From positions 1-55,388 of IMG/VR virus record IMGVR_UViG_3300032069_000147: a stretch of DNA of 55,388 nt, one strand, 5' to 3'. The position numbers were made by a program, and so were the translations under genes. The stretch comes from a virus. Under the pieces are notes generated by a model. It saw only the letters and a program-made list of their open reading frames with translations, had not been told where the DNA came from and did no database searches. This document shows, piece by piece, positions 5,295 to 53,219 of this stretch (position 1 is its first letter; every line of letters starts with the position of its first letter).

Positions 5295-5621
5295 ATGGGG
5301 AACGAAACAACCAATTTGTTGGTCCTGAACGCCGTGGCCGTCTGGATCATCCAGGCGCTAAAGGGCTCGAAGTACGTTCCCTGGATCACCGCGGAAACGG
5401 AAGCGGTCAATAAATTCGTCTCAGCGGCGTTCGCGGCTCTAGCATCCGCTGGAGTGGCATTCACGGCCGTCCACACGGGCGGCGTATCCGAGGGCGCGCT
5501 GACCATTTCGTGGGCGGGAATTACAGTTGCGAATGTGGTCAGTTTCTTGTACCATGCGGTCGCCTACTACGCCGCACAAAAGGCGTTCTTCAAGGTCACC
5601 GTGCCGCCGGCCCAGGGGTGA
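5295..5621 (+). CDS. Putative holin-like membrane protein
   Basis: This 108-residue protein starts MGNETTNLLVLNAVAVW after a CGGAGGA site. It has hydrophobic stretches at about residues 6-20, 37-56 and 69-92, with a charged loop (KGSKYVPWITAETEAVNK) between the first two. Size and topology suit a holin, and it opens a plus-strand block that later carries a lipoprotein and faces the endolysin gene. Holin identity is inferred from topology and context. A different small membrane protein remains possible. Confidence 0.55.
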   Translation: MGNETTNLLVLNAVAVWIIQALKGSKYVPWITAETEAVNKFVSAAFAALASAGVAFTAVHTGGVSEGALTISWAGITVANVVSFLYHAVAYYAAQKAFFKVTVPPAQG

Positions 5622-5624
5622 TCG

Positions 5625-5759
5625 ATGGAATGGGTGCGACGATGCCCGCGCTGCGGCAAGGAACTGAGGAAGAAAGATCCGGAAGAACCCTGGATTTGTA
5701 CTTGCGGATGGAAATCATGCCCGGAGCAAGAAGGAGGAGGAAATGTTCGGAGCGCCTGA
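5625..5759 (+). CDS. Small zinc-ribbon-like protein
   Basis: A 44-residue frame starting MEWVRRCPRCGKELRKK carries C7xxC10 and then C25xC27...C32, a plausible zinc ribbon. It starts three bases after the holin-like stop and overlaps the next start, so it is probably translated from the same message. Ribosome site weak. Function unknown. Confidence 0.5.
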   Translation: MEWVRRCPRCGKELRKKDPEEPWICTCGWKSCPEQEGGGNVRSA

Positions 5760-5883
5760 TGCCAAGAAGATTAAAGAGGCTTTCCGGGATTTCGACGCGA
5801 AGGTGGGAACTCAGCAGAGTCCGGACCCGGTTGTGAACCTGATCGTAGAATTCATCCGCGCTTTGTCCGAAGCTTTCAAATAG
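5743..5883 (+). CDS. Small hypothetical protein
   Basis: A 46-residue frame (MFGAPDAKKIKEAFRDFDAK...) with a strong AAGGAGGAGG site just before the ATG. It is a charged, helical peptide ending in an amphipathic VVNLIVEFIRALSEAFK helix. It overlaps the zinc-ribbon gene by 17 bases. The TnpB element begins eight bases after its stop. Role unknown. Confidence 0.55.
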   Translation: MFGAPDAKKIKEAFRDFDAKVGTQQSPDPVVNLIVEFIRALSEAFK

Positions 5884-5891
5884 GAGGCAAG

Positions 5892-5925
5892 GTCAATTAC
5901 CCCACGGCTAAAGCCGGGGGCTTGC
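5892..5925 (-). ncRNA. Right-end hairpin, probable 3' part of the TnpB guide RNA
   Basis: Stem CCCCACGGC with GCCGGGGG around a TAA loop, directly downstream of tnpB. In this family the right end is transcribed as the TnpB guide RNA, with the guide copied from the flanking DNA. Here the flank is the end of the 46-residue gene. The RNA itself is inferred. Confidence 0.5.
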
Positions 5926-7020
5926 AGCTAGATCATGCGAACTGATGGCACAAGCCGCCGCGTCCGGCGCATTGACGAGCGCCCGGCTCCGCAACACTCG
6001 AGCCGCGTTGATGTCGGCATTTATCGAGAAACTGCAACGCCGACACTGGAAATTCGATTGGGAAGTTCGGTTGCGTTTCGAGACATAGCCGCATTTCGAG
6101 CACTCGCGGGAACTGTTGCGAGCGTTAACCGCCGCTACCAAAACGCCAGCAAGTCTCGCCTTGTATTCTATAAAGGCCCGCAGTTGACCGAACGACCACG
6201 AACTCAATTCAGCCCGTCGAGATTTCCTGGCCCTAATCCGACAACGGATGCCCTTCAAGTCCTCAAGGGCAATTCCGCAGCCGAGGCGTTTGGCTTTCTC
6301 GACAAGTCGTTTGCTTATACAATGGTTCAAATCGCGCGCAAACCCAGATTCTTTTTCTCTTCGCTTCTTCAAAAGGCGTCGGCTGGATTTGGTCGCCTTG
6401 CGCTGGAGTTTAGCGCGAAGGTGACGGTGGCGCTTTCTGAGATTACGAACTTTCGCACCACTAAAGCTCTCGCCTGTGGAATCGGTGGCGAGGCGGTTAA
6501 TCCCAAAGTCAACTCCCAAATAGCCGTCAGGGTCGGAATCGAGCGGGGCTTCCACGACTTCGCAACCTGCGAACAAAAACCATTTCCCATTTCTCAGCAC
6601 CAAGTCGGATTCCCCAAGTTGGCTCTTCAGCAGCCGGGCCTGGTGCAACCCGGCAATGAAGGGGATTTTCTCTCGTCCCTTCATGGTACAAATCGAAACC
6701 GAGTCGGGGTAGTAGCGCAGGATGCGAAGATCGTAACTGATTGCGCCATGCAGTCGAAAGAGCCGCTTGGATTTCTTGTCAAGCTTATAGGCGTCAGAAA
6801 CTTTGGCGATCACGCGCACGGCCATTTGTGCAGTGAGGCCGAACTCCAAGCGCAGCAATCGGTAGCAAAGCTTGTGGATGGCGTACTGCCCGAACGTCTG
6901 TTGCTCCCATGCGATTTCAGACGCACGATTAGCGGCGCGATTGGCAGTTTCGAGAGTTGTCCGCAGTCTCTCGGCCTGTTCTGCCGTCGGCAAAAGTTTG
7001 ATCGCTGCGATCAATCGCAT
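5908..7020 (-). CDS. tnpB: TnpB RNA-guided nuclease
   Basis: With the start MRLIAAIKLLPTAEQ the protein has 370 residues, close to the family norm. The RuvC-like active site is visible: D171 in GVDFG, E253 in ALEDLKG and D336 in SINADINAARVL. The zinc finger C307-x2-C310...C326-x2-C329 lies between the last two. Family knowledge: TnpB cuts DNA guided by RNA made from the element's right end and helps the element persist. A TATAAT with an upstream TTGTCT precedes the start, so it probably has its own promoter. All catalytic residues appear present. Confidence 0.9.
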   Translation of the reverse strand: MRLIAAIKLLPTAEQAERLRTTLETANRAANRASEIAWEQQTFGQYAIHKLCYRLLRLEFGLTAQMAVRVIAKVSDAYKLDKKSKRLFRLHGAISYDLRILRYYPDSVSICTMKGREKIPFIAGLHQARLLKSQLGESDLVLRNGKWFLFAGCEVVEAPLDSDPDGYLGVDFGINRLATDSTGESFSGAKVRNLRKRHRHLRAKLQRKATKSSRRLLKKRREKESGFARDLNHCISKRLVEKAKRLGCGIALEDLKGIRCRIRARKSRRAELSSWSFGQLRAFIEYKARLAGVLVAAVNARNSSRECSKCGYVSKRNRTSQSNFQCRRCSFSINADINAARVLRSRALVNAPDAAACAISSHDLAASPRL

Positions 7021-7109
7021 GGGAGTATTATAGCACAAGCTGTCAAGAATAGACAAGCGGCGCTCCTCGCCACGAATGAATTCGGGGGTGTCCGCGCGGA
7101 GGGAAGTCG

Positions 7110-35486: not shown

Positions 35487-37106
35487 TCAGAAATTCATCT
35501 TGCGGAAACTCCCGTGCTCGATCCTGCGCTCCTCCGGTCTCGCCTGGCCGACGACCACCTCGGACGCCGGCATGGTTGCGGTCATCCGCCCGAGTTTGTT
35601 CAGCGCCTGGCTCATGGCGTCGGCGCGGTCCCAGAGCCCCGACTTCTCGCTGTAGCACTTCGAGACCTCATCGACGAAGTCATTGACCCAGCCATAGCCC
35701 GGCATCTCCGGATCGGGCAGATAGACGTTTCCCGCCTCGATGTCCCGGCTCGCCGCGCTCAGTCGGGCGGGCTTGCTGCCCTCAGCACGCACGGCGATCA
35801 GTCGCGGAACGACGTCGTGAAGCTGCGCGATCACAGCCGGCCCGTTCGCGGCATCCTCCACCCAGCGCGCCCCGTCCCGCGGGTACTGTTTATCCCACTG
35901 CTGGAGCTTGCGGCACGTACTCGGGAAATCAAGATGCTCGTGAATCTCTTCGAGCAGATACTTGTTGGCTCCCTTCTTGCGCCAGCGCTGCCCGGCCACG
36001 TAGCTGCTGTCCGTGTGAGCCTTGAATGCCATGTCGAAGGACTGCACATCCTCATCCGCTTCCCATTCCTTCGGCAACGTCGGCATGATGCCTTTCGGGT
36101 CCGGGCACCAGTCGAGCCGGTAGAATCGGAACCAGGCGCGCTTGACGATGCCGCCGCCAACGGGCGACGGCGACTGCTGCACCTGCGCATCGTAGCCGCG
36201 CCGACCGAGGGACGGAATCATGCCGTGGAGCTTCTCCAAGGACCAGTATGCGGCGTGCAAAGGTTCACCCATTTCCCGCGTCACGGTCCGCTTCGAGCGC
36301 GGGAAAATATAAGTGCGGCGGGCGGTAGCCTCGCCTTCCAACAGCACGTGCGTCCAGCGGCCCGGCTCGGTCTTCAGCAGCCAGTTGCTCAGATCCTTCT
36401 CGTTCAATTGCTGGCAGATTACCACGATGCTCGCCGTCTCGGGGTCGTTCACACACTGCGGCACGTTCGTCCGATAGGCCCGGACTCCGCTCTCTATGGC
36501 CGCGTCGTTGTCCATATCGTCTCGGGAATGCGGGTCATCGACCACTAGAAATTGAGCGCCATGTCCGGTGATGGAACCGGTCAGCGACGCCGAGTACATC
36601 ACGCCGGTGCGGTCGTTCTCAAACTGCGTCTTCAGGTTTGCGTCTGCGCGCAGCCGAAACTTGAGCCCCCAGCGCTCTTGAAACCATCGACTCTGAATCA
36701 GGTCGCGCCGCTTGAGCGAGTGCTCCGTGGCGAGCATGGCGTCGTAGCTCAGATACATGTAGCGCAGCGCCGGCTGCCGTATCCAGCTCCAGACAGGCCA
36801 GTGGATCGCCGCGCAATGGCTCTTGCTATGTCGCGGCGGCTCGTTGATCAGCAGGCGCTTGATTTCGCCCGCCGTCACCGCCTCCAAATACTCGCAGATG
36901 TAGCCGATGTGCCAATTGTCCTTGAACGGCGTCTCGGGCTCCAGGACCGGCCAGGCGTGAATTAGGAATTGATGCAGACTTTTCTCGCACGCCTCGGCGT
37001 CTTCCAGTCTACGCTGCTCTTCCTCGTCCGGGCTGAGCACGCTGACAACGTTTCGCCCTATCTCGGCGACGGCCCCGCCTGGCGTGTGATGGTTGGGTCG
37101 CTTCAT
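35487..37106 (-). CDS. terL: Terminase large subunit
   Basis: A 539-residue protein. The ATPase has a Walker A-like INEPPRHSKS (about 87-96) and a Walker B QFLVVDDPHS (185-194). The C-terminal nuclease begins near SFDMAFKAHTDSS (D358, D366), typical of the RNase H-like nuclease of terminases, followed by ANKYLLEEIHEH. It drives DNA packaging and cuts concatemers. It overlaps the methyltransferase gene by four bases. Confidence 0.9.
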   Translation of the reverse strand: MKRPNHHTPGGAVAEIGRNVVSVLSPDEEEQRRLEDAEACEKSLHQFLIHAWPVLEPETPFKDNWHIGYICEYLEAVTAGEIKRLLINEPPRHSKSHCAAIHWPVWSWIRQPALRYMYLSYDAMLATEHSLKRRDLIQSRWFQERWGLKFRLRADANLKTQFENDRTGVMYSASLTGSITGHGAQFLVVDDPHSRDDMDNDAAIESGVRAYRTNVPQCVNDPETASIVVICQQLNEKDLSNWLLKTEPGRWTHVLLEGEATARRTYIFPRSKRTVTREMGEPLHAAYWSLEKLHGMIPSLGRRGYDAQVQQSPSPVGGGIVKRAWFRFYRLDWCPDPKGIMPTLPKEWEADEDVQSFDMAFKAHTDSSYVAGQRWRKKGANKYLLEEIHEHLDFPSTCRKLQQWDKQYPRDGARWVEDAANGPAVIAQLHDVVPRLIAVRAEGSKPARLSAASRDIEAGNVYLPDPEMPGYGWVNDFVDEVSKCYSEKSGLWDRADAMSQALNKLGRMTATMPASEVVVGQARPEERRIEHGSFRKMNF

Positions 37107-37828
37107 TTCAAATCCAACTGCTCAACCGTCGGTTCAAACAAAGATGGTTGCGCTTCAACGCGGGCCAACCTCTCTCTAGCAATTTGGCAATAAGCTTCAG
37201 AAATTTCCAGCCCTAGAAAATGCCGCCCTAGCTTCTTCGCGGCCACCGCCATTGTGCCAGAGCCGAGGAATGGATCGAGAATGGTTTCGGCGACGAGCTT
37301 TCCAATCAAATATTGAATCAGAGAAACGGGCTTCTGGTGGGGATGAAAACGCCTCTCATTGCCACAAATGCCAGGGGTCTCCCATGTCGGTATCGTGTGG
37401 CCTCTAATGATGCCGTTATCTCTCGGCCCTATGAATTGGCCGTCCCCAACGATAAAGATCATTTCCCATGACGGCTTCCATGGGAATCTCAAATCCCCTG
37501 AGCCCACTGTCCCCTTATCCCAAATCACGCAGTGTCTGGAGCCTTGCGGCATGGGTTTCTGCCAGAGGCCGAACATGAGGATAGGACCGGAACAAACTCT
37601 CACGCATTCCGCAAGAGCAAGATCGCGCGCGGTAGTATCCGAATCCCCAGCAATTTCCTGTCCCTCCCATGAAGCGCCATGGCTCGAAGTGTGATGTATT
37701 CCGTACGGCGCGTCGGTAATCACGGCATCCACGCAGCCGTCGGGCAACGCCTTCATCGCCTCCAAACAATCCGTACAGAGGACGGTACAGCAATCATACG
37801 GCCCGATCTTTCGCCCGCATCCGGTCAT
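37103..37828 (-). CDS. DNA adenine/cytosine-N4 methyltransferase
   Basis: A 241-residue methyltransferase. Motif IV is TDAPYG (D39-A-P-Y-G43) and the AdoMet-binding FxGxG region is DPFLGSGTM near residue 193. The order motif IV then motif I fits a beta-class enzyme. It modifies adenine N6 or cytosine N4, probably to protect phage DNA from host restriction. The usual DPPY second Pro is Ala here, a variant seen in some active enzymes. It lies between the TerS- and TerL-like genes. Confidence 0.85.
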   Translation of the reverse strand: MTGCGRKIGPYDCCTVLCTDCLEAMKALPDGCVDAVITDAPYGIHHTSSHGASWEGQEIAGDSDTTARDLALAECVRVCSGPILMFGLWQKPMPQGSRHCVIWDKGTVGSGDLRFPWKPSWEMIFIVGDGQFIGPRDNGIIRGHTIPTWETPGICGNERRFHPHQKPVSLIQYLIGKLVAETILDPFLGSGTMAVAAKKLGRHFLGLEISEAYCQIARERLARVEAQPSLFEPTVEQLDLK

Positions 37829-40776: not shown

Positions 40777-41247
40777 TCATATCTGCTTTCCGCCCCTTTC
40801 CTTCCCTTCGCCGCGCTTCCCAAAGCCGAAGGCCCGCAGCGCCTTTCCGCCGGCCCGCAGCCTCCGCAGCACATCCTGCTTCGCCGCCGGGTCCATCACG
40901 GCTAGCGTCTCCAAGAGGCGCATGCATTCGTCGTGCGTGAGCTTCCCCTTGACTTCGTTTCCTCGCTCGGACACGATGCGCAGATTCTCAAACCAGAAAC
41001 TTCCGCCGCGCGAGACCGGCACATCATGGTCCGCCGAGAAATTTCGCACGGTAATCAGTTCGCCCGCGTAGGGACAGCGCTCGCCCAGTTTGAGCATTAT
41101 GCCGTCGCGCAGTCCTTGCAAACTATAATCCAGCTCGCAGCCAGACCGCGCCGCCAATTCCCGCTGGTGACGATAGATGTTCGCGCTGCGGCTCATCAGT
41201 ATCCGCTGCCGGCAATGCTCAAGCGTCTCTCCGGGCTTCCGTTTCAT
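40777..41247 (-). CDS. HNH-type endonuclease
   Basis: ATG at 41247 follows GGAGG by seven bases. The 156-residue protein has CPYAGELITVRNFSADHDVP, SRGGSFWFENLRIVSERGNE and VKGKL: the DH..P...GG..N...N..KG outline of an HNH nuclease. Only one Cys of a possible zinc site is seen. It lies just below the second hairpin cluster, whose last arm ends 29 bases before this start. Nuclease action on DNA is inferred from the motif; a role with the hairpin array is suggested by position only. Confidence 0.65.
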   Translation of the reverse strand: MKRKPGETLEHCRQRILMSRSANIYRHQRELAARSGCELDYSLQGLRDGIMLKLGERCPYAGELITVRNFSADHDVPVSRGGSFWFENLRIVSERGNEVKGKLTHDECMRLLETLAVMDPAAKQDVLRRLRAGGKALRAFGFGKRGEGKERGGKQI

Positions 41248-41275: not shown

Positions 41276-41457
41276 AATCGGGAGCGGCACGCTTGCAATG
41301 GTTTTCAGTTCGCGGGTGGCCGCTCCCGATTTCTACAAGAGCGCAGGCGGCATCCTTGTAGTGGTGTTCAAATGGGAAGTGGCCGCCTGCGCCCCCTCCT
41401 TGAATGAGATGGTCGGCGCACAGGTTTTGGTTTTCAGTACGTAAATGGCCGACCATC
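41276..41457 (-). ncRNA. Hairpin guide array, cluster 2 (3 units)
   Basis: Three units with loops at 41289-41318, 41352-41381 and 41418-41447. Arms are perfect: 13, 11 and 10 bp. Each loop is 30 nt; on the minus strand it reads CCA-N9-TGAA(A/C)ACCA-N9-T/C then GCC. Spacer pairs by unit: CCCGCGAAC/TTGCAAGCG, CTTCCCATT/CTACAAGGA, TTTACGTAC/AAACCTGTG. Arms differ in sequence but always keep pairing. The cluster lies between the 160-residue gene and the HNH gene. Interpreted as part of a TIGR-type array. Confidence 0.75.
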
Positions 41458-41465
41458 CCCCTGCT

Positions 41466-41948
41466 TCAGGCCGCCGCTTTCCTGGCTTCCTGATAGGCGG
41501 CCAGAATCTCGCGCCGAAGTTCCCGCCATTCCATCCCCAACAGATTCAGCCGCCGCGAATCCGCCGTGACCCGCGCCTTCAGCCGCGCCAAGACGAACTC
41601 CTTCGCCTCGGCGTCGCAGGAATCGACGAATCCGAACGTCCCGTACTCATCGATTACCCGGATAGTAGCCAGTCTGATCGGCTTGCCATCCTTGCCCCGA
41701 TGCATGTGTATACAGTAGCTGTAAAGGAAGCGGCGATAGACCTCATAGACTCCCGCATCCCAAACCTGCTCGTCCGTGTAGAGCGCGCGGATGCGCCCTC
41801 CGTTCTGCCCCTCATCCCAGTCCCGGAGCGACGCGACGCTGGGCTCGACTTCGTTCTTCTTGCACCATTCGCACCAAGCCAGATAATACACCTCGCCTTC
41901 TGAGATTTTCTTCTGCTTCTTTTTCTCGACCGTTGCCGTGGTATCCAT
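41466..41948 (-). CDS. Hypothetical gene inside the guide array
   Basis: Start MDTTATVEKKKQKKISEG at 41948 with GGAGGAG upstream; a longer frame would run through a hairpin unit. The 160-residue protein has EVYYLAWCEWCKKNEVEPS, a RALYTDEQVWDAGVYEVYRR helix and a basic helical C-terminus. It lies between the two array clusters; hairpins sit 28 bases before its start and nine after its stop. Its place suggests an array-associated protein or an inserted cargo gene. No family recognised. Confidence 0.65.
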   Translation of the reverse strand: MDTTATVEKKKQKKISEGEVYYLAWCEWCKKNEVEPSVASLRDWDEGQNGGRIRALYTDEQVWDAGVYEVYRRFLYSYCIHMHRGKDGKPIRLATIRVIDEYGTFGFVDSCDAEAKEFVLARLKARVTADSRRLNLLGMEWRELRREILAAYQEARKAAA

Positions 41949-41975
41949 CTTCTTCTCCTCCTCGATTTGGAATTT

Positions 41976-42478
41976 GCAGGCGGCTCGCAGTTCCACGCTG
42001 GATTTCACTGCTACCTTGGCAAGCCGCCTGCGCTTGCGAAGACGCCAGCCAGCCTTTGGATTTCACAAAATAGCTGGGCGTCTTCGCGTTCGATCTTCGG
42101 GCTGGCCCACACAAAAGTAGTGGATTCCAGCCTTACATTGGTAAGCCAGCCCATGGGCGCTGGCTTCAGCAAGTCGGTCAATGGTTTTCACCGCGACAAT
42201 GCCTGAAGCCTCGCATCTTTCTTTCACGGCGCGACGCGGCAACGGTATCCTGGTTTTCACACTTCGTTTGGCCGCAATCGCGCCCCCGAAACTATGCATC
42301 GGCACTGACCTGCTGGTTTTCAGCCGACTTACGGCCGCATGCATAGCTTGCTCTTGCCTGCGAGGGAGCCGGCACGACGTCCGTGGATTACAGCGCCGTG
42401 GTGGCCGCCTCCCCCGCAGGCGCCGTTCCGAGGTCGGCAGCTTCGAAGTGGTTTTCAAGTTTCCCTTGGCCGACCTCG
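41976..42478 (-). ncRNA. Hairpin guide array, cluster 1 (8 units)
   Basis: Eight units with 30-nt loops starting at 41989, 42047, 42111, 42172, 42241, 42304, 42374 and 42439; spacing is 58-70 bases, so not a multiple-of-three coding repeat. Arms of 8-18 bp vary in sequence but stay complementary. Spacer pairs, from the 42439 unit down: AGGGAAACT/CTTCGAAGC, CCACGGCGC/CGGACGTCG, TAAGTCGGC/GCAGGTCAG, AACGAAGTG/GGATACCGT, TTGTCGCGG/TTGACCGAC, ATGTAAGGC/CTACTTTTG, GCTATTTTG/AAGGCTGGC, AGGTAGCAG/GCGTGGAAC. Loop core is TGAAAACCA in four, with A/T or A/G changes in others. In units 41989, 42111 and 42374 plus-strand C-A mismatches become G-U wobbles in minus-strand RNA. The first unit overlaps the end of the Tas-like gene. 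Confidence 0.8.
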
Positions 42479-43482
42479 AATTTCTTCCCATTACCTGACA
42501 CCCAGATTCTTTTCAGGATTTCCTTCATCATCTTCCGCCGCGCCCGCGCCCCGCAGTGCCCCTGCTTTGTCTTGCAGTTGGGGCATTTCGCGTCGTGCGC
42601 CGCGAATTCCTTGGCGTATTCCACCTCATAAAACTGCCGCCACGGATTCGCCCGATTCCTGATAATGGCCGTTCCGGCCAGATAAACCGCCGTGCGCATG
42701 GCCGGCGACCAATGCGACGCCACGCCCCGCGTCCGCTTCGGCGCTTTGCCATTCTCCACCGACTGGCCGCAGAATCGCCAGAATGCCGCCACGCTCGGGA
42801 ACCTCTCGAAGCCCCCGGAGAAGGCCACGAACGTCGCCGCAGAAATCCACTCCTGGACGTGCAGAATCCTCCGCGCCATTTCGCATTCGGGAATCTTCGC
42901 CGCCAACTTCGCGATGTAGGTGTCAAGCTGCGTGCCCTCTTCTGAGACCACTGACGTGCGAATCTCCCCCAGTTTTTCTAGCGCCTGCTTGAACATCGGC
43001 TCAGCCTTCATTGAATCCTCATCGGCCAAACCCATGTTCCGAGCTTCCTGCTTCACCGCCCGCAGCGCATCTCCGTAGAAATGAACGACGGCGCCGCGAA
43101 GCGAGAGAGCGTGCCGCAACTGAGCGATGTCCGGCCGGGGCTGAAACTCACGGAAAATTCCATCCGGCAATTTCGCCCACGCCGCAACGATCTCTTGCGG
43201 CGGAAGATTCTTCTCGATTCCCGTCTGGTGCCAATGCGTATAAAGCAGCTTCACGCCTCGCTCCGCCAATGCGAACAAGAGACTGTCCGTGGCGCGCACC
43301 GCCGTTAGACGCACAATGTCTCCCGTCTTCAGTGATCTAACGAAGTCGTTCAGCTTTGCCCCGGTTAGGCGCTCAACGCCCTCGCCGTGCGAGACATAAG
43401 CCGTAGGTGTTCGTCTGCCATCGGTCTTCTCGTAGCAGACATGTAGAGCAATGATTTTTTCTCGGTTGAATTTTACTGACAT
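42388..43482 (-). CDS. IS110/Nop-like RNA-guided DNA-binding protein (Tas candidate)
   Basis: A 364-residue protein with GGAGAGGAG before MSVKFNREKIIALHVC. Residues 200-330 match the IS110/IS116 C-terminal domain (HVQEWISAATFVAFSGGFER, HWSPAMRTAVYLAGTAII, ARRKMMKEILKRIW) with a C300xxC303...H309-C310 knuckle. The N-terminal half has an IS110-like outline (FALAERGVKLLYTHWHQTGI), but the catalytic acidic residues of the DEDD site are not where expected. No transposon ends are seen. Beside the dual-spacer hairpin array this fits a TIGR-associated (Tas) Nop-domain protein without its own nuclease. About the last 30 residues are coded by the first array unit. Confidence 0.7.
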   Translation of the reverse strand: MSVKFNREKIIALHVCYEKTDGRRTPTAYVSHGEGVERLTGAKLNDFVRSLKTGDIVRLTAVRATDSLLFALAERGVKLLYTHWHQTGIEKNLPPQEIVAAWAKLPDGIFREFQPRPDIAQLRHALSLRGAVVHFYGDALRAVKQEARNMGLADEDSMKAEPMFKQALEKLGEIRTSVVSEEGTQLDTYIAKLAAKIPECEMARRILHVQEWISAATFVAFSGGFERFPSVAAFWRFCGQSVENGKAPKRTRGVASHWSPAMRTAVYLAGTAIIRNRANPWRQFYEVEYAKEFAAHDAKCPNCKTKQGHCGARARRKMMKEILKRIWVSGNGKKFEVGQGKLENHFEAADLGTAPAGEAATTAL

Positions 43483-43500: not shown

Positions 43501-43953
43501 TTATCGCTTCTCCTTCACACTCCATTTGGGCTCAGGCCCAGCTTTTCGGTGGCACTCGGCGCACAGAGTCGCCAGATTCCGGACTTTCTTGCCGTCTATC
43601 ATAATCCAGATGCGGTCATCTCTCCGTCCCCCGCTCATGCCTCTCCCACGCACGTGGTGAATCTCGGCCTCGTTCGCCAGGCCTTTTCCTGGCGGGCTCA
43701 GGAATTTTCCGCAACTATCGCAGCATCCGCCGTCAAGCAGAAAGACATCCATCTTCCGTTCCCGCCATGCCGCGCCGCTGAGCGCTTCCCGGCCGTCACG
43801 ATAGACGACCCGCAGGCGCTTCTTAGCTCGTTTAAGCTTTGGCGGCTGGGAATCGCGGTCAATCGTCTCGCAGGCGCGAAGGCGACAAACCCAAGCGCGC
43901 TTTGACGGCAGCCAGCGGAGCGTGCGGTTGTGACTCGGACATCGAGGTTTCAT
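43501..43953 (-). CDS. HNH endonuclease
   Basis: Start MKPRCPSHNRTLRWLPS at 43953 with GAGGTG upstream. The 150-residue protein ends in a clear HNH motif: CDSCGKFL, EIHHVRGRGMSGG, then NLATLCAECHRK. Zinc-binding CxxC pairs surround the active His. It lies 18 bases upstream of the Tas-like gene in the same direction, so it is probably co-transcribed. Unlike TasH proteins, the HNH domain is not fused. It may act with the RNA-guided protein, or be an ordinary phage HNH. Confidence 0.75.
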   Translation of the reverse strand: MKPRCPSHNRTLRWLPSKRAWVCRLRACETIDRDSQPPKLKRAKKRLRVVYRDGREALSGAAWRERKMDVFLLDGGCCDSCGKFLSPPGKGLANEAEIHHVRGRGMSGGRRDDRIWIMIDGKKVRNLATLCAECHRKAGPEPKWSVKEKR

Positions 43954-44531
43954 CGTTGCACCTCGCACGCCGACTCTAACGCCGTCAGCGCACTATCATC
44001 GTATCGCAGATCAAAATCAGCGAAGATGGCCTCCAGTGCAACCGTCTTGCTATCCGTCTGATTCAGCCGCTTCGCCTTCTCGATGCACCGCTCGATGACC
44101 GGGACGAACGAACGCGGCACAGTGAAGAACACCTGGACATTGCCTTCCAATAGCAGGCCGGGAACGCGCTCTGATACCGTGTGCTCGAACGTGCGCTCCG
44201 TCTGCGAATTCGCCGCATGAAGCAGTTCCTTCCGCCTCGATGTCGGAACCTTGCTAAGCACAATCGCGTTCGCCAGCGTCAGGGATTCAATCTCCGTCTC
44301 GTCCATCCCGCCGGCGCATAACTCCTCAATCGCGTGCATCCCGGCATAGGCCGTAGACCGGCTGCGCCCGAATTTTGCCTCCACCCAGTCGCCGAAGCGC
44401 TCGTAGCCGAGTTCCTTATAAAATCGTTGCTGCCGGCATTCCTGGCAGAGCTTCGCCACGCGAATCCAGGCCCGCCCAATTATCCGAGCAAGTTCGTCCG
44501 CTTCCTTGTCAAGCTGCTGTGCTCGGGTCAT
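43950..44531 (-). CDS. Conserved phage protein
   Basis: A 193-residue protein with RFYKELGYERFGDWVEAKFG followed by SRSTAYAGMHAIEELC, a pattern common in plasmid and phage proteins with a helix-turn-helix-like first half. Later FEHTVSERVPGLLLEGNVQV. It overlaps the HNH gene by four bases. It may be a DNA-binding regulator; no specific role is known. Confidence 0.6.
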   Translation of the reverse strand: MTRAQQLDKEADELARIIGRAWIRVAKLCQECRQQRFYKELGYERFGDWVEAKFGRSRSTAYAGMHAIEELCAGGMDETEIESLTLANAIVLSKVPTSRRKELLHAANSQTERTFEHTVSERVPGLLLEGNVQVFFTVPRSFVPVIERCIEKAKRLNQTDSKTVALEAIFADFDLRYDDSALTALESACEVQR

Positions 44532-45477: not shown

Positions 45478-46002
45478 TTAGCCAGGGGTTATTGACCGCG
45501 TCATGCGCTCCGGATGACTTGATGCTATAACCAGATTCCCGCGAAAGCTCCTAGCTTTATAGCTTCTAAAATGCGTGCCGTCTCGGTTGTTTCTGTCATT
45601 GTAGACGATCCAACTTGAGGAATACTCCAGGCGGAAAACTTCCAGATCAAGCAGCGACCATTGTAAAAGTACAGGTGGCTGCTGGCCTCCAAAACCATAG
45701 AAAAACCAATCGCCAAATCCCTGAATGATTTTCGCCAATTCAGTAGGCGAACCCGACTCACGCTCGCTGCGAATGGTAAATTCATACCGATAGGGATAGT
45801 CAGGAGGGTGCGCCACATAGTACTCTGGGCGACGAATCCGCACCGCTATTTTCATGTCTCGGGCTATAAGTATCAGCAGATCCGTGTTCTCCAAAACATC
45901 CATTTCAAAAGGCGCCGGCTCTAGCAGGCGCGGGCCGACAATCCGCTTGACCTCTGGAATGTAAAGATCAGACCACCGCTTGTCGTCTTGCCAAGTAATC
46001 AT
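45478..46002 (-). CDS. Conserved phage protein of unknown function
   Basis: Start MITWQDDKRWSDLYIPEVKR at 46002 with AAGGAAAG upstream, four bases inside the MT-A70 gene. Of 174 residues the core reads GPRLLEPAPFEMDVLENTDL, RIRRPEYY, YRYEFTIRSERESGSPTELA, IIQGFGDWFFYGFG. This family is frequent in phages of soil and aquatic bacteria, always without assigned role. Position after a methyltransferase may hint at nucleic-acid work, but nothing shows it. Confidence 0.65.
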   Translation of the reverse strand: MITWQDDKRWSDLYIPEVKRIVGPRLLEPAPFEMDVLENTDLLILIARDMKIAVRIRRPEYYVAHPPDYPYRYEFTIRSERESGSPTELAKIIQGFGDWFFYGFGGQQPPVLLQWSLLDLEVFRLEYSSSWIVYNDRNNRDGTHFRSYKARSFRGNLVIASSHPERMTRSITPG

Positions 46003-46991
46003 GAGCTTTCCTTGCCCCAACCCTCGAATCCCGGAATCGCTCGCCGATTAAACATGTCCAGCCGACGGCCCGCCGTCACGCGCGTTAGGGTCTCATAAAA
46101 CTCGGCTGGCTTGACGCTGTGTCCGGTGCGCTCAGCTTCGAATCCGATGAGAAAATTCTTGGTAGTCGTGAAGCTCGGCGATCCCCGGCGCGCATATAGG
46201 CAAAGTTCCAAATTGTACTGCGGCAATCCCACCGGCTGAAATCCCCCCGGCTTCAGCCAGCCGAAGCAGCAAACATACTTGAGTCCCCATGCCTCTAGCA
46301 GTCTGATCGCCGTCGGCAGATAGCGCTGGACGACCCACAGGAACACGTGACAATTCTCAGCCGCGTGCCCGGCGAACCTTTCACCGATTTCGAATCGGAT
46401 CTCATCAAGCGTCATCGTCGGATAGTCAAACGCCACCTGGTTGGGACGCAAATCTCGCTCGATCTTTTCCAGCGGCCATGGAGGGTCGATCACCATCACA
46501 TCGAATTTCCCAGCTAGTTCCTTCGCCTGCAGAGTCTCGATACTGTTAAGTTTCTCCTTAACTTCGACGCGCTTCAGTTCGCGTCGAGCGGCGCCCAGCG
46601 TCAATTCGCCGGAGACGTAGGCCTTCCGCAAGTCTCCAGGCAGGCGAGCTACCGCCTGCGCTTCCATGCTCTCTTTCCGTGTCACGCCGAGTTCGGAGAG
46701 AGTCGGCGCATCCCCGCTGTTCCCAACAGGAACAGCGGGACCCCGCTTTAGACGTCCCTTTGCCCGCTCAGTGGCTTGCAGCAGTTCGCCCATCCGCTCC
46801 TGCGCCAGCCGGGCATACTTCTGCGAATTGGCAACGACCTCGTCACCCAATTTCTTCCGCCGCGCCCAATCGGCTGCTGTCAGAGCGAGATCCTTGAGCT
46901 CCTTTGCTTTCTGCAGGGTCGTCGCCTCGGCTAGCATCTGCGAAGCGCGGCCCATAAGGACCAAGGAATTGCTTGATTTAGATGGGTTCAT
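45999..46991 (-). CDS. MT-A70-family adenine methyltransferase
   Basis: Start MNPSKSSNSLVLMGRASQ at 46991; the earlier Arg-rich part is a shadow. The 330-residue protein has a helical N-terminal half that recalls phage MT-A70 proteins (KELKDLALTAADWARRKK, LAQERMGELL). The catalytic motif VIDPPW is at about residue 169 and later HVFLWVVQRYLP, CCFGWLKPGGFQPVGLP, and ELCLYARRGSP. It methylates adenine N6 in DNA. It is the second methyltransferase of this phage; the two probably recognise different sites. Confidence 0.85.
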   Translation of the reverse strand: MNPSKSSNSLVLMGRASQMLAEATTLQKAKELKDLALTAADWARRKKLGDEVVANSQKYARLAQERMGELLQATERAKGRLKRGPAVPVGNSGDAPTLSELGVTRKESMEAQAVARLPGDLRKAYVSGELTLGAARRELKRVEVKEKLNSIETLQAKELAGKFDVMVIDPPWPLEKIERDLRPNQVAFDYPTMTLDEIRFEIGERFAGHAAENCHVFLWVVQRYLPTAIRLLEAWGLKYVCCFGWLKPGGFQPVGLPQYNLELCLYARRGSPSFTTTKNFLIGFEAERTGHSVKPAEFYETLTRVTAGRRLDMFNRRAIPGFEGWGKESS

Positions 46992-47727
46992 GGTTCCCCG
47001 CCGCCTCCGCCTTGTAGTCTTGCGCCTGCGTCTGAGCGTGTCCGACAATCGGACGCGGCTTGACCGGCCCGTCCGGCTTGCTTTCAATCGCGATCCGCGC
47101 GCCGTTCTTGAGCGCCGCGTCGCAACTGTCGCACACGAGCAAGCCTTTGAAGTACGGGATCCAGTTCTGCGTCTGTATGGGATATTTCTTCGCCAGCCAG
47201 ACGATCATCGGATTAATCATCTTCGTGAATTCGTGACCACAGAAGGGGCAGCGGCATTTGTCCGCCGAGCATTCCACGTGAATCGCTTCGTAGGCGTCCG
47301 GCCCGACGAAGGCCAGCAAGGCTCGGGCTTCGGATACTTTTGGCAGCGTGGAGGCCCTCCGCCTCGCTTCACCGACGGCCGACTGGGCCTTCTTGTACTC
47401 CACGATTGCCTTGCGCGCCCGCTCGAGTTTCGCGCAGCACTGGTGTTCGGGCGGCCCGAACTTCACCGTCATCACCGGGCGCTCCTCGATCATCCGGTTA
47501 CGCCTCGCCTCTTTCGCCAGCCAATAGATCGCCGCCGGCCGGGGTTCCCTCTGCCCCTCCTGACTGCTCTTATATTGCTCGATCGCTGTGGCAAAGTCCC
47601 GCACATCCACATCAGCGAACGTGCGGTACCAGGCTTCACGTAGTTTTTTCAACTGCCCTTCGGAACGGTTCGAGAAATATATGCTCTCAAGCTGGAGCAT
47701 TTCTGCGTCGAAGTCGCTCTGCTGCAC
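46978..47727 (-). CDS. Replication-associated protein (helicase loader-like) with zinc finger
   Basis: A 249-residue protein. Its first 80 residues (LQLESIYFSNRSEGQLKKLR, EAWYRTFADVDVRDFATAIE) resemble the N-terminal domain of helicase loaders such as G39P. The second half holds ECSADKCRCPFCGHEF and VCDSCDAALK, two zinc sites. It lies directly downstream of the initiator-like gene, as lambda P follows O. Loader role is inferred. It carries a GTCCGA-N3-TCGGAC palindrome near its 3' end. Confidence 0.55.
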   Translation of the reverse strand: MQQSDFDAEMLQLESIYFSNRSEGQLKKLREAWYRTFADVDVRDFATAIEQYKSSQEGQREPRPAAIYWLAKEARRNRMIEERPVMTVKFGPPEHQCCAKLERARKAIVEYKKAQSAVGEARRRASTLPKVSEARALLAFVGPDAYEAIHVECSADKCRCPFCGHEFTKMINPMIVWLAKKYPIQTQNWIPYFKGLLVCDSCDAALKNGARIAIESKPDGPVKPRPIVGHAQTQAQDYKAEAAGNHEPI

Positions 47728-50351: not shown

Positions 50352-51064
50352 TTTCCCTCCATGCGATAGTGATTCCCCCGCCAAATCGCGACGACTAGCG
50401 CAGCTTTGAAAACCTCGTAATCGCTTGCGTCGTCGAACAGTTCGACCCTGTATGGTTCCCCCGCAGCGTCCGGCATGAGGCGGACGGCGTAGCGCGCCCA
50501 CTTGTAGGGCCTCGCCTTCGGCGGGCCGTATTCCGCCAGCAACCCCAATTCATAGCCCGCAAGCTGGACGCCCCACCACGGCTCATCCTGCCGAGAGCAC
50601 TTGAGGTCGAGGATGGCGGGCTTTCCGTCAAGCAGCCCCGCCCGGTCGAGCGTCATCCCGTACTGCATTTGTCTGATCGTCGGACGCAGCCGCAGTTCGA
50701 TGGCTTCATAATTGCGAACGTCCACAACGCGCCCGTCTTCAGCCTTGATCAGTTTGTGGAACATACACGCGCGGAAATTACTCTGCTTCTTGAACGCTTC
50801 CCAGGCATGGACATAATCCCGGATCACGGGATCAATTGAATCCCACGGTTCGCGCGCCTGCTGAGAGAGGGCGTCCCAACGACAATTGTGCGCGTCCAGG
50901 AACGCCGTCGCCTCATGCACCGCGCTGCCGATGATCCGCGCCCTCGGGTCGTCGGGATAATGGCTCGTGTCCACGACGTGCGCGAGCGCGAGCGCCTGGG
51001 TTACGGAAACCAACGGCCTGCCGTCATCCGCGAAGTACCGATGCGCTTTTTCAGAATTCCTCAT
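50348..51064 (-). CDS. PD-(D/E)XK exonuclease
   Basis: Start MRNSEKAHRYFADDGRPLVS at 51064, overlapping the annealing protein's end by 14 bases; a longer frame lies inside that gene. The 238-residue protein has H50 in GSAVHE, D140 in LDRAG, ILDLK with D153 and K155, and Q167 in VQLAGYELGL: the RecB-type PD-(D/E)XK nuclease set. Next to an annealing protein it should act as the recombination exonuclease, making single strands for annealing. All active-site residues are present. Confidence 0.8.
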   Translation of the reverse strand: MRNSEKAHRYFADDGRPLVSVTQALALAHVVDTSHYPDDPRARIIGSAVHEATAFLDAHNCRWDALSQQAREPWDSIDPVIRDYVHAWEAFKKQSNFRACMFHKLIKAEDGRVVDVRNYEAIELRLRPTIRQMQYGMTLDRAGLLDGKPAILDLKCSRQDEPWWGVQLAGYELGLLAEYGPPKARPYKWARYAVRLMPDAAGEPYRVELFDDASDYEVFKAALVVAIWRGNHYRMEGK

Positions 51065-53219
51065 GCCGATCGCGATCCTCGAAATCCCTTCGTTGATCAT
51101 CTTCAGGCTCCCGTTCCTGCTCCGACTTCGGCTTGGCAAAGCGCTTGAGCGCTTCGTCAAGCTGCGCCTTTGACATCAGATGGACATGCTCGACGCCAAG
51201 CGTTTTCAGCACGGTGTGCGCTTGCTCTTCAGTCCACCCCTGCTTTTTCACGACCGCCCAGAAGAGCTTGATCTGATCTTTCGTGACCAGATCCGCCGGG
51301 CCTTCCGCTTGGCCTTTATCGGATTTGGGGCCTTGGTCTGCCAATCGAGTCATGATCTCATCGAACTTCGACGCTGGGATTTCCGCCGTGCTCTTGAACC
51401 CGTACTGCCTGAGGAGCCATGCTGCCAGGATAGGGCTCCTCCACCCATGTGCGTTGGCTGCCTTGAACAGCTCCTTCCGCTGAGCGTCTGTGACAAGAGC
51501 CTGAGCCTGCTCATTCCCGCTGGCCGCCTTCTTCTCATGCGTTTCTATAGCCGGCTGGATGTCCTCCATGTCCTGCGTGAAGATCCCTGAGCTTCGCGTC
51601 GCCGAAAGCGTCGCGTCAATCTTGGAGTTGTGGGAAACGATGCCGTTAGGAAGGATGAAGAGATGCGGATCTTCAACCTCAATATCATACAGAACTGATT
51701 TTTGATTGACGATCTGAATGTCCGTAACTTCTTCCAGGTTCTTTCCGTTATAACGGGGCAGGTCAAAACTGATCCATCCCTCATAGGTGGGGAATTCTTT
51801 TCCGCCACAAGTACTTATCCCACGCTTGAGCCTATGCCTATATCCAAGAATTGCACAGATGCACCGGAGGTCATCTGCCAACGCAAAGTTTTCTCCGGTG
51901 AAACCGACGATCCACTTATCTTGCAGGCCACGGTAATCTTCAGAATGTCCGTCACCATCCAAGTATCCCTTCAGGAGTAGTCGAATGAATTCTTTGCCCT
52001 GTCTCCATGAGTACTTGGAAAGGTGTTTTCCGTAGCAGTCGGTTCCTAACACAAATTGCTGCATCAGACCTGTAAAGGCTGGCCCAGTCACAAAAATGTC
52101 GCCTATGTTTCCCTTTGGCCGTCGAGATGCCAAAATGCTTCCTCCAACGATAGAAGCCGCCTTTTCGATCATGGGAATGAATGATTCAATCTCGTCTGCC
52201 GCCATCGTAAATTTTACGTGTCCGCGGTCGCAGTGACCTTCAGCCAGATAGAATCCAACCGTCCACGCGATGGATTCGTCAACGGTCATCTGCCCGGATA
52301 ATTCCGGTCGATTTCGAATCATCACGTCTCCCACCTGGATGTCTGCCGTTAGCTGTTCTCCGCGAGTCGTGGGCCAGATGTGTTCTCCCGAACAAAATAT
52401 TGCAGAGCCATCCGCGAGCCGGATTCGGATTGCCTGGGGTCTTTCTTCCCGGCTCATTCCGATAATCCTTCCCCATCCGCCTTCCATCGGAAGCATTAGG
52501 GGTTCGCGGTTCTTCATGCCCCACATCTGAAACACGGTATCGACCCTACAGCGGCTAACCCCGCTTGACGAAGAGACCAGAATGGGAGTGTTGGAACCAA
52601 GACACCTTTTCTTCCCGAGTTTCAAGATCGTGTTCTTTAGCGTAGCAATGTCGTCGTTATCGACGCGGCCGACTGTCTGGTTGGCGATGCGCTCATCACC
52701 GATGTCGAATTTCGCGCCGCAGCCGTTCGACCGCCCTTCCTTCTTCCAGCAGATCCAGCCGCCCCCGTACTCCTCTTTGCCCTTGATGATCGTCTCCTGG
52801 CCGCAGTTGGGGCACCGGCGCTTCAAGTCGCGCCAGCGGTACTTCCCCTCGTAGCTGTTGCAGGAGCCCAAGCCGCTGGCCACGGCGACGCCGCTGCGCT
52901 TTGAGCGGAGCACGCACCGAATCGTGTAGTCGAATAGGGGCGGGACAGCCGACCAGTCCTCCCGCGAATAGTCCGTCAGGATCTCATACTCGTCCGCAAG
53001 CCCGTAGAGTTCGCAGAGTTTGTCGGCGCCCGGTTTGTAGAGCGTGGGTTTCGTCGTTCCGGGGATGATCCCGTAGTCCTCTTCCTCGACTAGATATTGT
53101 TTGACGAATTCCTGGAATTCGGCCAAGCGCGCCTTGGCCGTCTTGAGGTCCATCACCGGCGCAAGCATCAGCTCGCGCTCGGCGCTTTGTACAACGATTT
53201 CTTTCGTTTCTTCGGACAT
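51051..53219 (-). CDS. Single-strand annealing/recombination-type protein with intein
   Basis: A 722-residue precursor; AAGGAGAAAC upstream of MSEETKEIVVQSAERELMLA. Residues 1-205 and 532-722 form the host protein (396 residues after splicing): YGIIPGTTKPTLYKPGADKL, a zinc ribbon CPNCG...CWKK...CGAK, then SKIDATLSATRSSGIFTQDM, the conserved core of a phage family found in recombination modules. Residues 206-531 are an intein. C-terminal helical repeats follow. I assign annealing or ssDNA binding from context (next gene is an exonuclease); a biochemical name is uncertain. Confidence 0.65.
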   Translation of the reverse strand: MSEETKEIVVQSAERELMLAPVMDLKTAKARLAEFQEFVKQYLVEEEDYGIIPGTTKPTLYKPGADKLCELYGLADEYEILTDYSREDWSAVPPLFDYTIRCVLRSKRSGVAVASGLGSCNSYEGKYRWRDLKRRCPNCGQETIIKGKEEYGGGWICWKKEGRSNGCGAKFDIGDERIANQTVGRVDNDDIATLKNTILKLGKKRCLGSNTPILVSSSSGVSRCRVDTVFQMWGMKNREPLMLPMEGGWGRIIGMSREERPQAIRIRLADGSAIFCSGEHIWPTTRGEQLTADIQVGDVMIRNRPELSGQMTVDESIAWTVGFYLAEGHCDRGHVKFTMAADEIESFIPMIEKAASIVGGSILASRRPKGNIGDIFVTGPAFTGLMQQFVLGTDCYGKHLSKYSWRQGKEFIRLLLKGYLDGDGHSEDYRGLQDKWIVGFTGENFALADDLRCICAILGYRHRLKRGISTCGGKEFPTYEGWISFDLPRYNGKNLEEVTDIQIVNQKSVLYDIEVEDPHLFILPNGIVSHNSKIDATLSATRSSGIFTQDMEDIQPAIETHEKKAASGNEQAQALVTDAQRKELFKAANAHGWRSPILAAWLLRQYGFKSTAEIPASKFDEIMTRLADQGPKSDKGQAEGPADLVTKDQIKLFWAVVKKQGWTEEQAHTVLKTLGVEHVHLMSKAQLDEALKRFAKPKSEQEREPEDDQRRDFEDRDRHEEF
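51627..52604 (-). other. Intein with LAGLIDADG-type homing endonuclease
   Basis: It begins at Cys206 (CLGSNTPILVSSSSG) and ends ILPNGIVSHN followed by Ser532, so all splice-site residues (Cys1, His-Asn, +1 Ser) are present. 326 residues. Two endonuclease motifs are seen: FYLAEGHCDRG and KGYLDGDGHSED. It sits between KKR and SKIDATLSATR, a conserved core, which is a usual intein site. Confidence 0.9.

Follow-up and report, generated by a model that had tools for sequence, protein, structure and literature searches.

The virus record IMGVR_UViG_3300032069_000147, of which positions 1 to 55,388 (55,388 nucleotides, nt) are analysed here and hereafter called the window, comes from a tailed phage, a virus of bacteria, and carries on its minus strand, at 41276-43482, a tas gene for a Nop-domain protein beside an array of hairpins with the features of paired RNA guides. 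A second gene, here called the partner gene, lies between the two clusters into which the array is divided (Table 1). Very likely, this locus is a TIGR system of the stem-loop type carried by a phage. Alignment with its relatives in other phages shows that the guide segments are exchanged within a framework of stems and loops that stays in place.

The array comprises 11 hairpin units in two clusters, as a preliminary description of the sequence had reported, with eight at 41976-42480 and three at 41276-41459; the units are spaced 58-70 nt apart, and the distance from unit 8 to unit 9 is 571 nt. All 11 loops follow the pattern CCA-N9-TGAAAACCA-N9-TG, departing from its 16 fixed bases in no more than two places per unit; each unit holds two spacers of 9 nt, which are set between a box C (CCA) and a box D (TG) and lie around a loop resembling TGAAAACCA. 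The earlier wording of this pattern holds throughout apart from unit 5, in which spacer B has 10 nt and box C reads GCA. The stems differ from unit to unit and are complementary within each unit, also as first described, with Watson-Crick pairs at 88 of the 110 inner arm positions (8.0 of 10 with a unit's own partner arm, against 4.1 of 10 with the arms of other units), a level reached in none of 100,000 permutations in which the arms were re-paired. A strict detector recovered eight of these units, whereas 20 locally shuffled versions of the window gave none, and in single-strand folding the stem closes the loop in every unit, with z-scores of -2.3 to -6.3 relative to the unit's own shuffles. 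Units 3 and 4 were missed by the ungapped count because their stems are bulged. An Rfam search gave no score near the gathering level.

The 364-residue product of the adjoining gene had been taken for a Nop/IS110-type protein, and the structure prediction proposed as a check agrees with this assignment. In a single-sequence search, Tas matches TasR (PDB 9mty) with an E-value of 1.9e-15, and a profile built from four Tas sequences retrieves from the PDB both TasR (1.5e-24, over the Nop part) and TasH (21kl; 4e-8). For the AlphaFold2 model (mean predicted local distance difference test score, pLDDT, 74; predicted template modelling score, pTM, 0.67), the closest solved structure is TasR (VIA-align Z 18.4 over 273 residues); TasH aligns across the coiled coil and Nop part at Z ~16, IS621 at Z 14.0, and Prp31 and Nop56-type proteins at Z ~7. 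Residues 5-109 of the model align with RNase H/RuvC-like folds (RuvX, Z 6.0), and the alignment with TasR starts at residue 9. Since its first ~110 residues adopt this fold, Tas is more than a bare Nop domain: it does not belong to the TasA subtype, which is a solo Nop protein with no nuclease-like domain, and the initial view of a form without a fused nuclease has to be corrected to that extent.

The catalytic site had been described as looking degenerate, and it probably is: judged from the aligned ranges (residue 9 of the model to residue 6 of TasR), the catalytic Asp11 of TasR falls at residue 14, an invariant His in all four relatives aligned. Given this apparent His, the RuvC-like domain is probably inactive or altered as a nuclease. 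The Pfam model of the IS110 DEDD transposase matches neither Tas nor its aligned relatives; Transposase_20, also of the IS110 family, is matched in all four relatives, below cut-off for the window protein. Relative to a related phage, L001, whose Tas is 87% identical and whose locus is ~84% identical, the ratio of non-synonymous to synonymous substitution rates (dN/dS) is 0.11 for residues 1-330 (dS 0.43) and 1.06 for residues 331-364. The latter segment is disordered in the model and largely encoded by the DNA of hairpins 1 and 2 (42388-42485, minus strand), which lie in or across the 3' end of tas. This overlap of the first hairpins with the end of the gene suggests that the array is transcribed together with tas, probably on the same mRNA.

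Table 1. Positions of the tas gene, the hairpin units and the partner gene in the window; units are given as box C, spacer A, loop, spacer B and box D.
Feature	Position	Strand	Details
tas gene	42388..43482	-	364 amino acids; TasR/TasH profile matches, AlphaFold2 model, dN/dS
Tas domains			RuvC-like N-terminal, residues ~9-109; coiled coil, ~117-177; Nop-like C-terminal, ~186-330; disordered tail
Unit 1 (cluster 1)	42427..42480	-	CCA AGGGAAACT TGAAAACCA CTTCGAAGC TG; within the tas reading frame
Unit 2	42357..42420	-	CCA CCACGGCGC TGTAATCCA CGGACGTCG TG; overlaps the tas stop codon
Unit 3	42289..42349	-	CCG TAAGTCGGC TGAAAACCA GCAGGTCAG TG; one-base stem bulge
Unit 4	42226..42286	-	CCA AACGAAGTG TGAAAACCA GGATACCGT TG; internal loop in stem
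Unit 5	42160..42212	-	GCA TTGTCGCGG TGAAAACCA TTGACCGACT TG; spacer B of 10 nt
Unit 6	42099..42152	-	CCA ATGTAAGGC TGGAATCCA CTACTTTTG TG
Unit 7	42036..42087	-	CCA GCTATTTTG TGAAATCCA AAGGCTGGC TG; only unit with spacers kept in L001 (16/18)
Unit 8	41976..42031	-	CCA AGGTAGCAG TGAAATCCA GCGTGGAAC TG
Unit 9 (cluster 2)	41406..41459	-	CCA TTTACGTAC TGAAAACCA AAACCTGTG CG
Unit 10	41337..41396	-	CCA CTTCCCATT TGAACACCA CTACAAGGA TG
Unit 11	41276..41331	-	CCA CCCGCGAAC TGAAAACCA TTGCAAGCG TG
Partner gene	41466..41948	-	160 amino acids; between the clusters; ATG at 41948, longer frame from GTG at 42008

Faure et al. 2025 (PMC12045711) describe 'stem-loop arrays' as a second kind of TIGR array, in which unit-specific palindromes replace the edge repeats, two spacers of 8-12 nt lie between box C and box D, and the loop is variable or conserved; one such array, with 13 hairpins in three sub-arrays ~450 nt apart, is expressed and processed. 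The locus is a member of this already published kind, because the window fits the description in every testable feature: variable palindromes stand in place of edge repeats, as seen from the arm pairing, permutations and folds, the 11 units have CCA and TG boxes and spacers of 9 nt (one of 10), and the adjacent Nop-domain protein is related to TasR and TasH by profile and fold. The match of Tas in sequence and fold, together with this array anatomy, bears out the first identification of a TIGR-Tas-like system, apart from the expected 36-nt RNA products, an expectation that belongs to dual-repeat arrays and not to an array of the stem-loop type.

Among the described systems, the stem-loop TIGR-Tas of a Peromyscus leucopus gut contig (PMC12045711) resembles the window in its Nop-domain Tas, unit-specific stems, two spacers between boxes, several sub-arrays ~450 nt apart, phage or metagenome setting and sometimes conserved loop repeat; in contrast, its Tas is a solo Nop protein whereas that of the window has a RuvC-like N-terminal domain, and the inter-cluster gap of the window carries a conserved gene. 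From the same source, TasR proteins of candidate phyla radiation bacteria share an inactive-looking RuvC domain, the Nop domain and stem arrays with the window; large Nop insertions are described for that clade, and the window Tas differs from it in coming from a tailed phage. TaTasR (PDB 9mty), an active nuclease with a dual-repeat array, is alike in its CCA and UG boxes, 9-nt spacers and A-rich loop; the window differs in having variable stems for edge repeats and apparently a His at the catalytic Asp position.

Relatives of the locus are found in both uncultivated and cultured phages. A scan of IMG/VR with the 18-base pattern GGCCA-N9-TGAAAACCA-N9-TGCC returned eight stretches, all eight with real arrays near Tas-like genes and one of them the relative contig of L001. 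The Tas-like frames near the arrays are 44% identical to the window protein in L006, 39% in L008, and more weakly similar in L005/L007, L009, L010 and L011. In L006 the tas stop likewise overlaps the first hairpin of its array. L005 and L007 have the same array as each other, with more than 20 units that use two alternating stems (acggtcg/cgaccgt and gagcccgg/ccgggctc) and lie between and inside several frames; its spacers are identical in the two contigs, which come from different metagenomes. In GTDB contigs the same 18-base pattern gave 34 isolated matches and no multi-unit array, and the Tas profile likewise retrieved no relative from GTDB.

Cultured phages with tas-like genes include Mycobacterium phage Rich, Gordonia phage Morrissey, prophiFSAT01-1, Rhodococcus phage Peregrin and Microcystis phage Mvi-JY20, and protein searches additionally placed such genes in a large set of Fromanvirus mycobacteriophages. 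Hairpins built to the same plan, with CG as box D, occur in Rich, in Morrissey, in prophiFSAT01-1, in Peregrin (where one unit was found) and in Euphoria and BPBiebs31; no such hairpin array was found in Mvi-JY20. Among the actinophages (L052-L055, L057-L068), many Fromanvirus mycobacteriophages have a stem-loop array of five units next to a Tas homologue that is labelled 'transposase', 'helix-turn-helix' or hypothetical, and PHROG 4285, labelled 'transposase', is this Tas family.

The frame between the two clusters has counterparts in the corresponding position of L001 (88% identical) and L006 (34% over 90 amino acids, E 1e-15), and its dN/dS of 0.16 reflects purifying selection; on these grounds it is a real gene. 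Five actinophages of different genera, forming a second clade, have a partner of their own beside tas (PHROG 4604), and a third clade (L005, L009 and L010) has another, each of the three clades of tas phages thus possessing its own conserved partner, with no evident kinship among the three families. A Pfam search of the partner proteins gave no significant match, and the predicted structure of the window partner protein is of low confidence (pLDDT 58), below what a fold comparison requires. PMC12045711 mentions only an occasional ParB-like gene among TIGR neighbours; that all three clades have kept a partner of this kind hints that these systems may not be single-protein, and participation of the partner in the system is a speculation. 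In L008, whose Tas is 39% identical, a 182-amino-acid frame next to the array (5563-6111, plus strand) has no significant similarity to the window partner.

Conservation of the spacers among related phages had been named beforehand as the outcome that would speak against a guide array, and the comparison came out the other way, as 10 of the 11 spacer pairs are not conserved. All 11 units recur in L001 in unchanged order and with matching stems and loops, and loop variants such as TGTAATCCA (unit 2) and TGGAATCCA (unit 6) are common to both phages, which identifies the units as orthologous slots. Identity between the two is 91% in left arms, 85% in right arms, 98% in loop repeats and 73% in linkers, against 35% in spacers A and 23% in spacers B. 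Counted over 18 spacer positions, units 1 to 11 share 3, 6, 6, 3, 0, 4, 16, 5, 4, 7 and 4 bases, while pairs of different units share on average 4.55. Leaving aside unit 7, 42 of 180 spacer positions are identical, which is the chance level; synonymous sites are ~69% identical, and the probability of 42/180 under the synonymous rate is 3e-36. Spacers at chance identity next to linkers that are still 73% identical speak against simple drift.

Similar behaviour is seen in 12 mycobacteriophages, whose tas genes are 94.6-99.0% identical (mean 96.8%) and whose stems are 79-100% identical, with spacers at 32-50%. In the three units measured, seven to ten distinct spacer pairs occur per unit, the alleles being common to several phages in different combinations, as in reassortment, and some of them forming graded series that differ point by point (TTGTCCTGC, TTGCCCTGCC, CAGTCCTGCC). 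These alignments indicate that spacers change in place, by mutation and by exchange between phages, on a constant rack of stems. Such in-place replacement between relatives is new here, being absent from PMC12045711 in the part covered.

It is possible, though we put it forward tentatively, that these systems consist of two genes and a constant set of guide slots, in which the partner acts in the use or renewal of guides and the guides are diversified in place much faster than neutral sequence, with no units added. A dedicated active mechanism, such as replacement of the spacer windows from a template or mutation directed to them, perhaps with the partner gene, would agree with changes that end sharply at the box C/D borders (loops 98% identical, stems 85-91%, spacers at chance), with the conserved partner in each clade and with the change of both spacers of a unit. 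We nevertheless regard it as unlikely that such a mechanism drives the turnover, as graded alleles and reassorted shared alleles are explicable by ordinary mutation, recombination and selection, equally sharp borders result when boxes and stems are under purifying selection, and none of the window proteins searched was identified as a reverse transcriptase or adaptation protein; active renewal is a speculative step beyond the sequence comparison itself.

Several observations weigh against a set of rapidly renewed guides. The target geometry, derived from the 8-nt 3' overhang reported for TasR (PMC12045711), has on one strand spacer A followed by the reverse complement of spacer B, with 0-2 nt between. 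Searches for self-targets in the window phage and L001 (both pairing geometries, gaps of 0-2, up to three mismatches) gave counts equal to those of re-paired controls, and mycobacteriophage spacers run with the same settings against Euphoria and Barriga gave no site above control level. In the large collections, where exact sites only were sought, three mycobacteriophage alleles had no 18-bp site in 50,697 phage records, and two window units had none in IMG/VR, where one of two re-paired controls gave 2. Two further mycobacteriophage alleles were run beside a positive-control 18-mer; the control was recovered and took up all the matches listed, which makes the negative for these two alleles a less clean one. 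Relaxed constraint on the spacers could account in part for the swap, and unit 7 (42036-42087, minus strand) is conserved in L001 (16/18) and has two spacer segments that can pair together, CCAGC..TTTTG with CAAAG..GCTGG, counting spacer segments plus boxes. With spacers that are both conserved and able to pair with each other, unit 7 may be structural or regulatory rather than an ordinary guide.

Taken further, the empty target searches for every spacer tested, the structural behaviour of unit 7 and the drift expected of unused single-stranded loop segments would fit hairpins that serve in regulation or processing (as terminators, RNase sites or signals for packaging or replication), with the 9-nt segments as unconstrained loop and not guides. 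This is very unlikely, because the spacers have 9 nt in nearly all units and lie between conserved boxes that match the known contacts of TasR, their divergence exceeds that of neutral linkers and synonymous sites, and arrays next to Nop-domain genes recur in phages that are otherwise unrelated. An insertion sequence of the IS110 family, with the protein as RNA-guided recombinase and the hairpins as copies or remnants of its bridge RNA, is highly improbable even though the Tas C-terminal domain matches Transposase_20, the model shares fold and domain order with IS110/IS621 and the family is labelled 'transposase' in phage databases, because TasR is the better match in sequence and fold, the DEDD match is missing and the first catalytic position is His in all four relatives, 11 single-loop units with 9+9 spacers are unlike one two-loop bridge RNA, and gene and array sit at the same place in the 84%-identical phage, with no sign of transposition.

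For the stem-loop TIGR system, we propose that the array would be read from the minus strand, probably on the tas mRNA. By analogy with the characterised systems, each processed hairpin would be held by a Tas dimer at its two CCA/TG box pairs and would offer two 9-nt guides, one for each strand of a single DNA site of ~18 bp. The likely effect would be to bind and bend DNA at specific sequences, and so to block transcription or replication or to assist some other DNA process; binding is favoured over cutting because the RuvC-like domain is probably inactive. Stems and loops form the fixed rack of slots in which spacers are replaced quickly by mutation and recombination in place, with no addition of units. 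The targets would be a changing set, for which fast spacer turnover is expected; rival phages or host loci under change are the simplest, speculative, candidates.

Further genes of the window include, on the minus strand, a TnpB-like gene at 5908-7056 (Cas12f1-like TNB domain, E 1e-19; OrfB_IS605, E 3e-10), which adds another family of RNA-guided nucleases to this phage, and a 722-amino-acid frame at 51051-53219 with an intein splicing domain (E 5e-6, below cut-off). The tas locus lies between two HNH-like frames, at 43501-43968 (Pfam HNH, E 4e-5) and 40777-41247 (weak, below cut-off), and two DNA methyltransferase genes lie within a few kb of tas, at 37103-37828 and 45999-47087 (N6_N4_Mtase, E 6e-18; MT-A70, E 3e-14), all on the minus strand.

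The origin of TIGR spacers and their targets are open questions in PMC12045711. Where the spacers come from is now measurable, since the stems identify orthologous slots, and in-place turnover is a partial answer to the published question of how TIGR spacers change. CRISPR arrays are alike in being multi-unit guide arrays with variable spacers but add repeat-spacer units at one end, whereas spacers of the type in the window change inside fixed, recognisable units; partner-assisted diversification of guides in place, if true, would be an updating route unlike CRISPR adaptation. Phages of Mycobacterium smegmatis (Euphoria, BPBiebs31, Pinto and others), in which tas is annotated as a transposase or hypothetical protein, offer a laboratory system whose host is sequenced and which includes dozens of related phages, allowing direct tests of processing, targets and turnover.
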